From NCBI GenBank assembly GCA_015063165.1, contig SUSZ01000003.1, forward strand, positions 62,001 through 126,000: 64,000 nt of DNA. The letters run 5' to 3'. This document shows, piece by piece, positions 59,986 through 64,000 of this stretch. The notes beneath the pieces were generated by a model. The model saw only the letters and a program-made list of their open reading frames with translations. It had not been told where the DNA came from and searched no databases. The first letter of the stretch is position 1; each line of letters begins with the position of its first letter. A program made the translations under genes and the position numbers. This DNA comes from Thermoplasmata archaeon (GTDB lineage: Archaea; Thermoplasmatota; Thermoplasmata; Methanomassiliicoccales; Methanomethylophilaceae).

Positions 59986-60039
59986 ATCCATACAGTATCC
60001 ATCCGCATGTAATTTATTCTTATAGTTAATACTAACTTT

Positions 60040-60435
60040 GTGTACTGCTCTAATTGCGGATACAAACTGGATTCGGACGACGAGTACTGCCCGAACTGCT
60101 CGGCCATGGTGAAGAGAGAGGGGACACCCTACATAGACCCTGAGCACGAGGAGGCGGAGGACTTCGAAGAGAGCCCTCCCGTCACAGTCAGTCGCACGCC
60201 GAACTCCGGCATAGCGATGGTTGTATCCGTGATCCTTCCGGGGATAGGGGCGGTCATAGCAGGCGACTTCAAGGGATTGGCGGTCTTCGCGCTGAGCATC
60301 GTGGCCGCGATAATCGCCAGCACGGAGATCGTGCTGATGCCGTTCTTCGTGTCGGTCATGATCGTCCTATGGATAGTGGGGCTGTCGATGACGCACGACG
60401 CGACGACGGTCAGCTCCGATGCGAGCCCTTGTTGA
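60040..60435 (+). CDS. Zinc-ribbon membrane protein
   Basis: A 131-residue protein. An N-terminal zinc ribbon (CSNCGYKLDSDDEYCPNC, 3-20) precedes an acidic linker and two hydrophobic helices at about 60-75 and 82-115. Starts with GTG; a TATA-like TCTTATAGTT at 60016-60025 suggests a leaderless transcript. This zinc-ribbon-plus-membrane type is common in archaea and of unknown function. Confidence 0.7.
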   Translation: MYCSNCGYKLDSDDEYCPNCSAMVKREGTPYIDPEHEEAEDFEESPPVTVSRTPNSGIAMVVSVILPGIGAVIAGDFKGLAVFALSIVAAIIASTEIVLMPFFVSVMIVLWIVGLSMTHDATTVSSDASPC

Positions 60436-60459
60436 AAATGGATGATTGGGTGTGAGAGG

Positions 60460-60972
60460 ATGGCAGAACGTGAACACGGAGTTCCGATGCATTGCTGCAG
60501 ATGTTCATACGACTGGTTCCCTCGCGGGAGCGAACTACCGAAACGCTGCCCAGAATGCCGTTCCGTGAAATGGAACAGCCCGAATCTGCTCGTAGAATGC
60601 CTCCGCTGCGGCCATAAGTGGAATTCCCAGAAGGGGAATCCGAAGAGATGTCCGAGCTGTGGCTCCAAGTGCTGGAACGTTCCGCCGAAGACACATAGAT
60701 GCATACAGTGTGGACACGAGTGGACGTCATCCAGCGACTGTCGTCCAGGAAGATGCCCCGAATGCGGGACCAAGTACTGGGATTCGATGAAACAGAAGAC
60801 CAAGAGAACCGCAAAGCGCTCCGCAGCCTCTGAGGACAGAGACCTGGAGGAGAACATACTGAATCTGCACTCGCAGGGGCTGTCGATCGTGGAGATCGCG
60901 ATCCGCACAGGGGCTCCCTGCAGCGTCGTCATCGAAACGGTGAAGGAAAACGCTTCAAAGGACAACGCCTGA
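60460..60972 (+). CDS. Multi-zinc-ribbon protein with C-terminal helix-turn-helix
   Basis: A 170-residue protein with several CxxC pairs (CCRCSYDW, RCPECRS, CLRCGHKW, RCPSCGS, CIQCGHEW, RCPECGT), which form three zinc ribbons in two-Cys-pair repeats of about 35 residues. The tail (LNLHSQGLSIVEIAIRTGAP) resembles a helix-turn-helix. A transcription factor is likely, by analogy only. The ATG at 60460 has GGTG seven bases upstream; an ATG at 60442 is alternative. It is transcribed in the same direction as the zinc-ribbon membrane gene, 24 bp away. Confidence 0.72.
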   Translation: MAEREHGVPMHCCRCSYDWFPRGSELPKRCPECRSVKWNSPNLLVECLRCGHKWNSQKGNPKRCPSCGSKCWNVPPKTHRCIQCGHEWTSSSDCRPGRCPECGTKYWDSMKQKTKRTAKRSAASEDRDLEENILNLHSQGLSIVEIAIRTGAPCSVVIETVKENASKDNA

Positions 60973-60977
60973 CTGCA

Positions 60978-61502
60978 TCAGTCGGGCAGATTGTCCCTCA
61001 TGTCCTTGATTTTCTGAAGTATCTCTTCAAATTTCTTATGCTCCGAGTCGGCAGCCGCCTTGCATGTCAGGTGCTGCTCGTGGCATACCTGGGCCTCGTC
61101 CCTGAGCTTTGCCGCCTCGTCCATCAGCTGGCACATCTTCTCGTGGTTTGCCTGTCCGGCGGCGGACATCTGGACGACCTTCTTGTGGTGCTCCTGAGCC
61201 TCCGCGCGGGCCCCGTCTATGTCGCCGTTGCCTCCGCGGGCCCTCATCTGGGCGGCACGGTCGTTGCATTCCTCGCGCTTCTGCTTGGCATCCCTGGCGC
61301 TGGCATTGCATTCGTCCCTCTTCTCGCGATAGGCGCGGGCCTGGTCGGACAGCTCCCTGGCCTTCTGCTGGAGCTTGTTGCGCTTCTCCGCCAGGACGGA
61401 GGCCTGCTGGTGGTACTTGTCCCTGGCTTCGCGGTGCTTGTTGGCCTCCTTGTTCAGCTCGGCCGTCATCTCCTCGAGGCTGCGCATGTCCTCCTCTATC
61501 AT
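60978..61502 (-). CDS. Coiled-coil protein
   Basis: A 174-residue almost entirely helical protein rich in Glu, Lys, Ala and Arg with heptad-like spacing (EEMTAELNKEANKHREARDK, LAEKRNKLQQKARELSDQ). It contains scattered Cys. Similar archaeal proteins are annotated as phosphoserine-phosphatase-like or coiled-coil proteins; no catalytic motif is seen. A minus-strand TATA (ATTTATACG, 61555-61547) fits a start at 61502, not the open frame further upstream. Confidence 0.75.
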   Translation of the reverse strand: MIEEDMRSLEEMTAELNKEANKHREARDKYHQQASVLAEKRNKLQQKARELSDQARAYREKRDECNASARDAKQKREECNDRAAQMRARGGNGDIDGARAEAQEHHKKVVQMSAAGQANHEKMCQLMDEAAKLRDEAQVCHEQHLTCKAAADSEHKKFEEILQKIKDMRDNLPD

Positions 61503-61607
61503 GTCCGATATCAATCTTACACCCTGGACGCCGATGGCGCACCAATCGTATAAATGTGCACCACGGACACCGCAACGGTTAATAAATGACTCACGGTAAG
61601 GGCGGAT

Positions 61608-61844
61608 GTGACGGACGAGAGCTACCGCAAATGCAGGACCTGCAGGCTGTGCAGGCATTCAGAAGACTCCTGGACATGCATCCCCGAGGGCAGGGAGACG
61701 GGTCCCGACTCCTCCTGCGGAAGGTACCGTCCAGGATGCTGCGAGACCTGCGCATCTCATTCCGAAGGAAAATGCGAGCTGTCCGGGCTCGAGGTCTACG
61801 ATCTGGACGTGTGCAGCTTCTACGACCCTTCAGGCCCTCTCTGA
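61608..61844 (+). CDS. Cys-rich small protein, 78 residues
   Basis: Starts with GTG, directly about 25 bp after AATAAATGAC-type TATA sequence, so probably leaderless. Cys occurs in metal-site-like pairs: KCRTCRLC, TC, SC, GCCETC, KC and VC, ten to eleven in all. The frame has no other rival on this strand. It overlaps the convergent DUF5685-like gene by 15 bp. Possibly a zinc or iron-sulfur protein; unknown family. Confidence 0.6.
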   Translation: MTDESYRKCRTCRLCRHSEDSWTCIPEGRETGPDSSCGRYRPGCCETCASHSEGKCELSGLEVYDLDVCSFYDPSGPL

Positions 61845-62741
61845 GTTCCTGTCCTTCCTGTTGGACAGGACGTTCTTGACGCTGGCCTTGGCCTTTGCCT
61901 CGCCCATGAGGACCTTCTTGGCCGACTCCGGTATGCCGTAATACACGATGTTGTCGCACAGGGAGACGTTCCCCTGCATGAGCGGCCTCACCTTGGAGTA
62001 GCTGGACTGGAGGCTTCCCACGGATTCGTTCATGATGGAGGTGAGGCTGTAGATATCGGACTCGATGAACTTCTTGGAGTTCACGTATCCGGTCTCCGGA
62101 AGGAACGGGTTGTAGGTGCCGTCCATGAAGTCGTCGTCCAGGTCGTCCACAGCGTCCATCAGGTAGACGCAGGCCGTGAGCTCCTCGAAGATCCTGTCCA
62201 GGTCGTCGGACGCGTGCTCGCCGGCTATGTCCTTCAGGGCTCCCGTGAGTCCCTTCCCGAACGTGACGCCCATCCTTCTGGCGTCCTTGCAACCGTCCAG
62301 CTCCAGCTTGCGGAGGGCACCGAACCCCTTGCCGACCATCTCGTCGTAATCCGGATACATCTTTTCCGCCTTCTCTATGGCTCTTCCCAAGGCCACGGAA
62401 ATGAGTTTGGTCTTCAGGGACGGCTTGTCGGTCTCGTCGTCGTACAGCTCCCATTTCGTGAGGATTATGGTGTAAGCCGCCATCTTCCTCATGAGCTCGG
62501 AATCCGCCTTCGGCTTGTCCAGGACGCAGATCGTCCTTTCAGTGGGGCCAAACTCCAGGGCCTCCCCTGTGACTCCTGCGAGAAGGATCGTGTTGAAGGT
62601 CATGTCGAAGTTGACGGTCGCCGTTCCAGACAGGCCGAACCCGGCCTTGAGCTGATGGCAGCCCTCGCAGTAGTACCTCCTGTATCTCTTGAGGTCCAAG
62701 GGCGGCAGCCTTTGATATGACGGGACCGTGTATCCGAACAT
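61830..62741 (-). CDS. DUF5685-like helical protein
   Basis: A 303-residue protein beginning MFGYTVPSYQRLPPLDLKRY with a CEGCH pair, as in proteins usually placed in DUF5685 (name from memory). A later segment YLMDAVDDLDDDFMDGTYNP has an Asp cluster recalling metal-binding motifs of trans-isoprenyl or squalene/phytoene synthase folds, but catalysis is not shown. Ends in a basic tail. It diverges from the Cys-rich peptide gene. Confidence 0.7.
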   Translation of the reverse strand: MFGYTVPSYQRLPPLDLKRYRRYYCEGCHQLKAGFGLSGTATVNFDMTFNTILLAGVTGEALEFGPTERTICVLDKPKADSELMRKMAAYTIILTKWELYDDETDKPSLKTKLISVALGRAIEKAEKMYPDYDEMVGKGFGALRKLELDGCKDARRMGVTFGKGLTGALKDIAGEHASDDLDRIFEELTACVYLMDAVDDLDDDFMDGTYNPFLPETGYVNSKKFIESDIYSLTSIMNESVGSLQSSYSKVRPLMQGNVSLCDNIVYYGIPESAKKVLMGEAKAKASVKNVLSNRKDRNSERA

Positions 62742-62878
62742 CGAGGGTCTATCTGCGGGACCGATTTAATTCTTGCCAGAGAAAATCCAAAATGACTGGA
62801 CAGGCAAGAACGTTTCAGTCCAGATATTTCAGAATTCGCCAAGGGTTAAATATCGGTAATCAGTACGGCGACTATTAA

Positions 62879-62895
62879 CCGAATATATTATTCGG
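62879..62895 (+). promoter_or_regulatory. Palindrome in the leader of the Cys-rich peptide gene
   Basis: CCGAATA-TAT-TATTCGG, a perfect 7-bp inverted repeat 13 bp before the ATG, between the TATA-like TTAAATATC (62845-62853) and GGTGA. It may be an operator controlling the peptide gene. Confidence 0.45.
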
Positions 62896-62907
62896 ACGGT
62901 GAATTTC

Positions 62908-63204
62908 ATGTCCAACGATGGAGCTTCTGTAGAGAAACTGACAGCGCTTTACGAGAGTCAATCCCCTTCCGCATTCGTCGCGTTTGCAATGCACGGACTC
63001 CCCGAGAGCGACCATGCCGAGCGTTTCGACAAGGGAGATCACAGCGGCGCCACCAAGTGCGATTATTGCTGCTGTGACGACAAAGGCTGCTGCAACAGCT
63101 CCGGATGGTACGGATGCCTCGCCGGCGGAATCATCTGCTGCTGCGCCTGCTGCTGCTACATCACCCACGGGTTCAACGGCGTCTGGACATACTGGCCTTT
63201 CTGA
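62908..63204 (+). CDS. Cys-rich peptide precursor (candidate RiPP substrate, CbpA-like)
   Basis: A 98-residue peptide with two distinct parts. Residues 1-47 are a soluble leader-like segment (MSNDGASVEKLTALYESQSP, ESDHAERFDKG). Residues 50-98 have 13 Cys (51, 54-56, 61, 62, 70, 77-79, 81-83) among Gly, Ser, Trp and aromatic residues, including CCCACCCY. The radical SAM/SPASM gene begins 45 bp downstream. This matches methanogen Cys-rich precursors next to peptide-modifying radical SAM enzymes (CbpA/CbpB, from memory). GGTGA lies 5 bases before the ATG; a GTG at 62899 would add three residues. No transporter or protease is visible before the window ends. Confidence 0.75.
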   Translation: MSNDGASVEKLTALYESQSPSAFVAFAMHGLPESDHAERFDKGDHSGATKCDYCCCDDKGCCNSSGWYGCLAGGIICCCACCCYITHGFNGVWTYWPF

Positions 63205-63249
63205 TTTTTATTTCCTGTCGCGTGGATTCTGCGCGGCAGGGGGCCATTC

Positions 63250-64000
63250 ATGAAACAATATCTTTCAGTCGTCGTGAAGCCTACACTGCGCTGCGACACC
63301 GACTGCAGGCATTGCTATCACCCTCCCGAGGAACGCGTAGGAGGGGAGATGTCCTTGAAGACGGTGGACAGGCTCATGGAACTCGTAGCGGAAGAGTACG
63401 AGGCGGCCTGGTTCGTATGGCATGGAGGGGAGCCTCTGACGCTCCCCCTGTCGTTCTACAAGGGTGTCGTCGAGCTGGAGGAGAAGCATTTCGGGAAGGG
63501 CACCTACCGCGTCGGGAACACCATCCAGACCAACGGCCTGAACCTCAACAGGAGGCTGATGGCCTACTGCAGGCAGAAGCAGATCAACATAGGGGTGTCT
63601 TACGAGGGCCCCTACAACCACATCCTCAGGGAAGGGGACGTGGCCAAGGCGATAGCGTCGCTGTCGGACAAGGACAACAAGCACTCGGCCAGCTCCACGA
63701 TATCAGCGGAGACCGCCCTCCACCAGAAGGAGATCTACGAGTACTTCCGCGACAAAGGGACCGACGTGTCGTTCTCACCCGTCATACCCGCAGGATGCGC
63801 CAAGTGCAACGGCACCGTTCCGGACCCGGACGACTACATAAAGGGAAGCATAGAGGCCTTCGACGAGTGGCTCACCGATTCCGAGTCCAAGATCCCTCTC
63901 ATCCCCCACTACCTGTACATGCTGAACTATCTCGGCGAGCCAGTGCCCTCCGACTGCGCCCACACCTCCTGCCTAACGAAGTGGATATGCGTCAATCCGG
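63250..64000 (+). CDS. Radical SAM/SPASM peptide-modifying enzyme (CbpB-like, partial)
   Basis: The first 250 residues of a radical SAM enzyme cut by the right edge. CX3CX2C is Cys15, Cys19 and Cys22 in LRCDTDCRHCY; WHGGEPLTL is the SAM-binding GGE motif, and TNGLNLNRRLM follows. Near residues 183-186 CAKC and from about 235 CAHTSCLTKWIC begin the Cys-rich SPASM region that binds auxiliary 4Fe-4S clusters. The closest pattern is anaerobic sulfatase-maturase/peptide-modifying enzymes. It lies directly after the Cys-rich peptide gene and is likely cotranscribed; thioether formation on Cys is the probable reaction by family analogy. Confidence 0.88.
   Translation, partial: MKQYLSVVVKPTLRCDTDCRHCYHPPEERVGGEMSLKTVDRLMELVAEEYEAAWFVWHGGEPLTLPLSFYKGVVELEEKHFGKGTYRVGNTIQTNGLNLNRRLMAYCRQKQINIGVSYEGPYNHILREGDVAKAIASLSDKDNKHSASSTISAETALHQKEIYEYFRDKGTDVSFSPVIPAGCAKCNGTVPDPDDYIKGSIEAFDEWLTDSESKIPLIPHYLYMLNYLGEPVPSDCAHTSCLTKWICVNP

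Follow-up and report, generated by a model that had tools for sequence, protein, structure and literature searches.

Small precursors with a leader-like part, encoded beside radical SAM/SPASM enzymes, occur in the radical SAM RiPP systems, among them sactipeptides, ranthipeptides/SCIFF, DynA, DarE, GrrM, CbpA/CbpB and TIGR04083. Sulfatase maturases of the anSME type (4K36; TIGR03942) form another group of such enzymes. In active isoprenoid synthases, Asp-rich motifs bind Mg-diphosphate. The eukaryotic protein CSP-alpha/DNAJC5 is a cysteine-string protein and is palmitoylated (PMC4447612). The open-access literature searched on DUF5685, on archaeal radical SAM RiPPs of this family and on bacterial cysteine strings yielded nothing on the system described here, an absence that is no proof of novelty.

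The window, that is, the whole stretch of 64,000 nucleotides that was analyzed, comprises bases 62001-126000 of a 137-kb contig, and the radical SAM gene at its end was finished by reading on along the contig. The genome encodes mcrA and PylS and is therefore that of a methanogen with a pyrrolysine system, which we take to be a member of the Methanomassiliicoccales (Methanomethylophilaceae). A preliminary description of this DNA had proposed a gene for a 98-residue peptide with 13 Cys in its last 48 residues, followed after 45 bp by a gene for a radical SAM/SPASM enzyme; peptide length, Cys count and gap to the enzyme's ATG (63250) were all confirmed. The two genes are co-directional, and a DUF5685 gene starts from the intergenic region ahead of them in the opposite, divergent direction (Table 1). 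The peptide/radical SAM-SPASM pair in this methanogen is genuine and conserved. Judged by gene order and co-occurrence, the locus is a three-gene module, with DUF5685 as a third gene that the preliminary description had left unlinked to the pair. A small CxxC-rich protein of 78 aa, for which NCBIfam and Pfam gave no match, adjoins DUF5685 in nearly all genera, the most divergent excepted.

Table 1. Features at the end of the window (window coordinates)
Feature	Position	Strand	Basis or remark
Small CxxC-rich protein gene, 78 aa	61608..61844	+	Convergent with DUF5685
DUF5685 (PF18937) gene, divergent	61830..62741	-	Pfam, alignment, predicted fold
TATA-box-like element TTAAATAT	62846..62853	+	Position conserved, about 60 bp before ATG; by eye
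Stem-loop CCGAATA-TAT-TATTCGG (CCGAATATATTATTCGG)	62879..62895	+	Just before GGTGA (62898-62902)
Cys-rich peptide gene, 98 aa plus stop	62908..63204	+	ORF reading, homologues; ATG begins at 62908, codon 98 ends at 63201 and the stop codon at 63204
Cys-rich core, residues 51-98	63058..63201	+	57 peptides compared
Uncharged hydrophobic 19-residue stretch, residues 68-86, transmembrane-like	63109..63165	+	Kyte-Doolittle
Radical SAM/SPASM enzyme gene, first 250 of 378 aa	63250..64000	+	Pfam, NCBIfam, alignment

The pair is carried almost throughout one methanogen family: the radical SAM enzyme occurs in 79 of 102 genomes of the family, and in 41 of 45 when only good assemblies are counted. Among 60 relatives, 33 have the enzyme and 30 the peptide, the latter count including a weak 31-residue match in a genome outside the family (G058). 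The difference is due to a contig edge (G006) and to divergent peptides in G032, G034, and G035, which were found by eye directly upstream of the radical SAM gene. Peptide homologues are present in every family genome that has the enzyme, unless the contig ends there, and wherever the surroundings of the enzyme gene are readable the peptide gene lies directly upstream. This adjacency holds from 94% down to 27-35% peptide identity and is far beyond chance, although the counts come from related genomes, many of them incomplete, and are not independent events. The possibility, raised in the preliminary description, that homologues of the peptide never sit next to radical SAM genes does not apply; they were always adjacent.

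The third gene follows the same distribution. Across 243 sampled genomes of the phylum, hits to DUF5685 above its cut-off and hits to the peptide profile pick out an identical set of 22, all of this family, and in 20 further family regions the peptide, the enzyme and the divergent DUF5685 gene occur together in all 19 that hold the family radical SAM enzyme; the twentieth (G305:C6) holds a radical SAM enzyme of another type. The pairing is conserved across about ten genera. G015 is rearranged, with DUF5685 about 20 kb from the peptide/radical SAM pair. In G033, NifH-like and then NifD/NifE-like genes, recognized by eye in translation, lie between DUF5685 and the peptide (L056:3900-7200, + strand), and G285 carries the whole three-gene module twice, on different contigs (L280 and L281), with slightly different peptides ending in CWPF and YWPF, respectively.

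The preliminary description had also pointed to a palindrome ahead of the peptide gene as its possible switch. The palindrome is present, and in most species a stem-loop ends 12-14 bases before the peptide ATG, just upstream of GGTGA. The stems differ by species (CCGAATA/TATTCGG, TACCGA/TCGGTA, TATCAG/CTGATA, CTATCG/CGATAG, and others). Compared with dinucleotide shuffles the hairpin has a combined P of about 7e-10, a value computed from related sequences that are not independent. A fixed DNA operator was rejected, because in other species the pairing is rebuilt from unrelated sequence; what had been taken for a DNA switch is more plausibly a hairpin in the 5'-leader RNA. By this comparison, the hairpin is an RNA element lying where the transcript is predicted to begin, and it is the pairing that is kept rather than the sequence. 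No Rfam riboswitch or sRNA was detected in 60000-64000.

The full-length radical SAM enzyme has 378 aa (L002:7251-8387, read along the contig). The CX3CX2C and GGE motifs noticed earlier are present at C15-x3-C19-x2-C22 and, as GGE(P), at 59-62. What had looked like an incipient SPASM region proves to be a complete eight-Cys SPASM domain once the gene is read beyond the window (C236-x4-C241-x15-C257 and C299-x2-C302-x5-C308-x3-C312-x17-C330), with a spacing that we take to resemble that of anSME. All eight Cys are invariant in 24 family members. The protein scores 37 bits with the Pfam Radical_SAM model (cut-off 29.5) and passes the SPASM model TIGR04085 (43.5 against a cut-off of 27); the CX3CX2C motif and the two domains together place it among the radical SAM/SPASM enzymes. 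Downstream of the gene, past the window, an open frame with in-frame TAG codons (L002:8398-8910, + strand) consists of two imperfect repeats (YWVGPCGYRVYEIL... and YCVGPGGRNV[TAG]KIL...). It may encode a pyrrolysine-containing protein, since G026 and G001 share its second TAG and the reading frame that follows, and these genomes encode PylS.

Whether the pair belongs to a described family or a new one had been left to a search of curated models, and that search places it outside them. No cut-off was passed with the cyclophane models (bits/cut-off: DynA 152/450, AmcB 81/425, GrrM/OscB 81/310, YhhB 72/445, DarE 78/650) or the thioether models (SCIFF 56.6/425, PapB 56.3/340, CcpM 36.2/500), and the sulfatase_rSAM model TIGR03942 (148.5/349) was missed as well. 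TIGR04083 (112/300) and other curated maturases were rejected, their scores being under the cut-offs. The CbpA/CbpB pair, suggested earlier as a possible identity, was likewise rejected, with CbpB TIGR04163 at 78.1/375 bits and no NCBIfam match for the peptide. Because no curated maturase cut-off was reached and sulfatases are absent, the enzyme, on these profile scores, is of a family outside the curated libraries tested. Relatives on plasmids were only generic SPASM proteins of 25-26% identity. A distant paralogue (249 bits) in G305 (L282:1007-3627, - strand) lies beside a second radical SAM-like protein, without this peptide or DUF5685, and is possibly part of another peptide-modifying system.

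An ordinary neighborhood, in which a relative of the sulfatase maturases stands beside a small Cys-rich protein by chance, would fit with anSME being the best solved-structure match of the enzyme (4K36, 147 bits). However, a search for PF00884 sulfatases gave hits in 10 of 14 controls and in none of 24 family genomes, and the pairing extends across about ten genera. A sulfatase maturase with a sulfatase partner, an identity for which the preliminary description had allowed, was rejected for lack of PF00884 in those 24 genomes. Conserved pairing, co-occurrence and sulfatase absence together refute a chance neighborhood, which we regard as extremely improbable.

All 13 Cys of the peptide are in residues 51-98. 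Residues 1-50 are leader-like, and this part is nearly Cys-free across the peptides compared. Over 57 peptides, Y15, Q18, C51, C55, C56, C82, Y84, W96, and P97 (the -WP-x end) are invariant and C62 and C81 nearly so, while C70 and C77-79 are freely exchanged with V, L, I, A or other residues. An uncharged hydrophobic stretch of 19 residues (mean Kyte-Doolittle 1.8-2.5) was present in 29 of 29 aligned peptides, ending 12 to 15 residues short of the C-terminus; in the window peptide it is followed by a 12-residue uncharged tail ending ...WTYWPF. The exchange of Cys for V, L or I inside the hydrophobic stretch argues for a membrane nature. Neither Pfam nor NCBIfam matched the peptide, and no J-domain was detected. 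The layout looks like that of a tail-anchor, with a charged leader, a Cys cluster, a transmembrane-like helix containing Cys and an aromatic tail, and the product is probably a tail-anchored membrane peptide rather than a secreted sactipeptide. A diversifying antimicrobial is disfavored by the tail-anchor look, the strong conservation and the family-wide retention.

The radical SAM/SPASM enzyme is intact in nearly all genomes. One genus, represented by a single genome (G032), separates the Cys pattern from the radical SAM chemistry. Its radical SAM gene (L055:7120-8208, - strand) still adjoins the peptide and DUF5685, but an in-frame deletion has removed the CX3CX2C segment, and GFEG stands in place of GGEP. 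All eight SPASM Cys are kept, and Pfam recognizes the SPASM domain alone. As far as its motifs tell, this protein is a catalytically dead pseudo-enzyme. The peptide retains the conserved Cys pattern and DUF5685 is intact, which indicates that in this lineage Cys conservation is independent of radical SAM activity. G032 thus offers a natural experiment that separates the roles of the radical SAM enzyme and DUF5685.

These data bear on the view that the locus is a classical radical SAM RiPP system, in which the enzyme would form thioethers (a sacti- or ranthipeptide), the leader would be cut and an antimicrobial or signal exported, with DUF5685 as a bystander or an immunity or processing protein. 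As in sactipeptide and ranthipeptide systems, a precursor with a Cys-rich core adjoins a radical SAM maturase with a complete SPASM domain, its leader-like N-terminus is nearly free of Cys, and the enzyme weakly matches two models of thioether maturases, SCIFF at 57 bits and PapB at 56. Yet the curated cut-offs are missed by far, the core is conserved rather than diversified, DUF5685 and the peptide co-occur in every sampled genome, and the Cys pattern persists beside the dead enzyme of G032. No transporter or leader protease adjoined the pair in the neighborhoods read; an MFS gene and a CDF-type gene lie several genes downstream in many genomes. We consider a classical system rather unlikely. 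The earlier suggestion that the Cys serve radical SAM thioethers is weakened both by G032 and by bacterial DUF5685 loci, described below, that have Cys tails with no radical SAM gene nearby.

A cyclophane-type radical SAM modification of the aromatic tail (G-x-G-x-W-T-Y-W-P-F) of a membrane-anchored peptide, with the Cys left to DUF5685, would be a more specific version of the radical SAM step in the explanation that we prefer, and overlaps with it. DynA (152 bits), AmcB (81) and GrrM/OscB (81) are among the best NCBIfam scores of the enzyme, but all are far under the cut-offs and the sulfatase maturase model scores equally (148 bits). In the tail itself, position -3 is always W and position -2 always P, and 55 of 57 peptides have an aromatic residue at -4. 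One exception belongs to G032, with its dead enzyme, where the peptide ends in QWPF instead of YWPF. The other is the Cys of the L280 copy in G285, which ends in CWPF next to an intact radical SAM enzyme, so that the QWPF end of G032 gives only a weak lead to a lost aromatic cross-link, and the correlation rests on one lineage. A cyclophane on the -4 aromatic residue, promising when 39 peptides were compared, was weakened by this copy, and we now judge cyclophane modification of the tail quite unlikely.

Because a sequence search of DUF5685 against the PDB gave no meaningful match, predicted folds were compared. In 68 DUF5685 sequences, M1, F2, G3, Y4, Y24, C25, C28, D46, D101, D105, E147, D196, D200, D204, and N211 are invariant, and C72 is nearly invariant. 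AlphaFold models of the window protein (pLDDT 89.8) and a bacterial homologue (pLDDT 94.8) are both all-alpha, the bacterial one with a short beta-hairpin. Among the Foldseek matches listed from the PDB, the top 50 of each model were all of the isoprenoid-synthase type, including polyprenyl and farnesyl synthases, CrtM/HpnC, UbiA-type enzymes and MoeN5. Match probabilities reached 1.00, with individual E-values of 0.001-0.2, none passing E 0.001, and TM-scores of about 0.5 or lower. An hhalign alignment to archaeal GGPP synthases, not significant in itself (P 0.08), placed D101/D105 on the first DDxxD motif and D196/D200 on the second. As the single E-values and TM-scores are weak, the argument is the unanimity of the matches together with the motif register. 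On these models, DUF5685 probably belongs to the isoprenoid-synthase superfamily.

A strict scan for the N-terminal motif pattern, with one genome per species, gave at least 80 bacterial DUF5685 loci, nearly all from Clostridia with a few from Spirochaetes (among the matches listed; L135-L214). Among these, where the next gene could be assigned, a protein with at least 4 Cys in its last 30 residues follows DUF5685 in 62 of 67 loci (median 7 Cys), whereas such a tail occurs in only 5 of the 346 other ORFs of these loci; in L141 and L174 the Cys-tail gene is directly upstream instead. Within the same listed matches, the partner tails are 25% Cys and 10% charged, the remaining sequence of these proteins contains 0.5% Cys, a Cys occurs within the last three residues in 53 of 62 partners, and the final residue is Cys in half. 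The archaeal peptides, in contrast, mostly have no Cys close to the C-terminus. The bacterial partners are J-domain/TPR proteins, recognized by Pfam DnaJ and with HPD in 49 of 62 among the matches listed. No relatives of the radical SAM enzyme were found in the bacterial DUF5685 loci listed. From these associations, in bacteria as in archaea, DUF5685 appears to accompany Cys-rich C-terminal tails, with the radical SAM enzyme as an archaeal addition.

DUF5685 and the Cys-rich tails could instead work together in binding metal or in redox reactions (Zn, Fe-S or thiol-disulfide), with the fold a scaffold that no longer handles isoprenoids. The invariant CxxC (C25, C28) and nearly invariant C72 are consistent with this, as are bacterial tails of 25% Cys among the matches listed, and the conserved CxxC could equally reflect metal handling or redox. 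Both Asp-rich motifs are nevertheless invariant, which a mere scaffold would not need, and the archaeal tail is hydrophobic, C-terminal and anchor-like. A metal or redox system seems to us unlikely.

The explanation that we prefer, tentatively and at somewhat less than an even chance, is that the three-gene module makes a modified, membrane-bound Cys-rich peptide, with DUF5685 acting on the Cys tails and the radical SAM enzyme adding a second modification. The leader-like segment with Y15 and Q18 would be the docking site for the modifying enzymes. DUF5685, as a diverged member of the isoprenoid-synthase superfamily, would act on C-terminal tails rich in Cys. In the simplest case it would be an S-prenyltransferase moving an isoprenoid from its diphosphate to Cys thiols, a transfer suggested by the pairing of bacterial DUF5685 with Cys-string J-proteins. 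The Asp motifs would bind Mg-diphosphate, and C25/C28/C72 may hold a metal that activates the thiol. The radical SAM/SPASM enzyme would install a further oxidative modification, a cross-link or backbone change, in the core. The product would stay in the membrane and fill a conserved role in the cell, connected with chaperoning, the envelope or metals, and would not be a diversifying antimicrobial. Against this explanation stand the weakness of the single fold matches, the mostly missing Cys near the C-terminus of the archaeal peptides, which sets them apart from the bacterial tails, and an adjacency that is not strict, as the distant DUF5685 of G015 shows.

A bolder proposal, which we put forward as possible but somewhat unlikely, is that DUF5685 is a new class of protein lipid transferase that S-prenylates the Cys tails of bacterial J-domain co-chaperones and of a methanogen peptide that is also modified by a radical SAM enzyme. 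DUF5685, an orphan Pfam family mentioned by a single paper in the open-access literature searched, gains a candidate substrate in bacteria and archaea alike. If it prenylates Cys tails, it would represent a second, unrelated enzyme fold for protein prenylation. Such prenylation would then be widespread among both Firmicutes and methanogens, and the J-proteins of bacteria would be lipid-anchored counterparts of cysteine-string proteins.

Compared with the described systems, the locus shares with radical SAM RiPP systems the small leader-like precursor beside a radical SAM/SPASM enzyme, but all curated cut-offs are missed, the core is transmembrane-like and conserved, DUF5685 is a partner, and no dedicated transporter or protease was seen nearby. 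The enzyme resembles the anSME type in domain order, CX3CX2C motif and full eight-Cys SPASM pattern, whereas it reaches only 148 of 349 bits, its genomes have no sulfatase and a dedicated peptide adjoins it. DUF5685 resembles the isoprenoid-synthase superfamily (GGPP synthase, CrtM/HpnC, MoeN5, UbiA) in its predicted fold and two Asp-rich motifs in register; it differs in lacking significant sequence similarity, in its invariant CxxC and in a genetic link that leads to Cys-rich tails instead of lipid pathways. The bacterial DUF5685 partners, like CSP-alpha/DNAJC5, combine a J-domain with a C-terminal Cys string, but they add TPR-like repeats, and the archaeal peptide, at 98 aa, has no J-domain. 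The resemblance of the bacterial partners to CSP-alpha is probably convergent.
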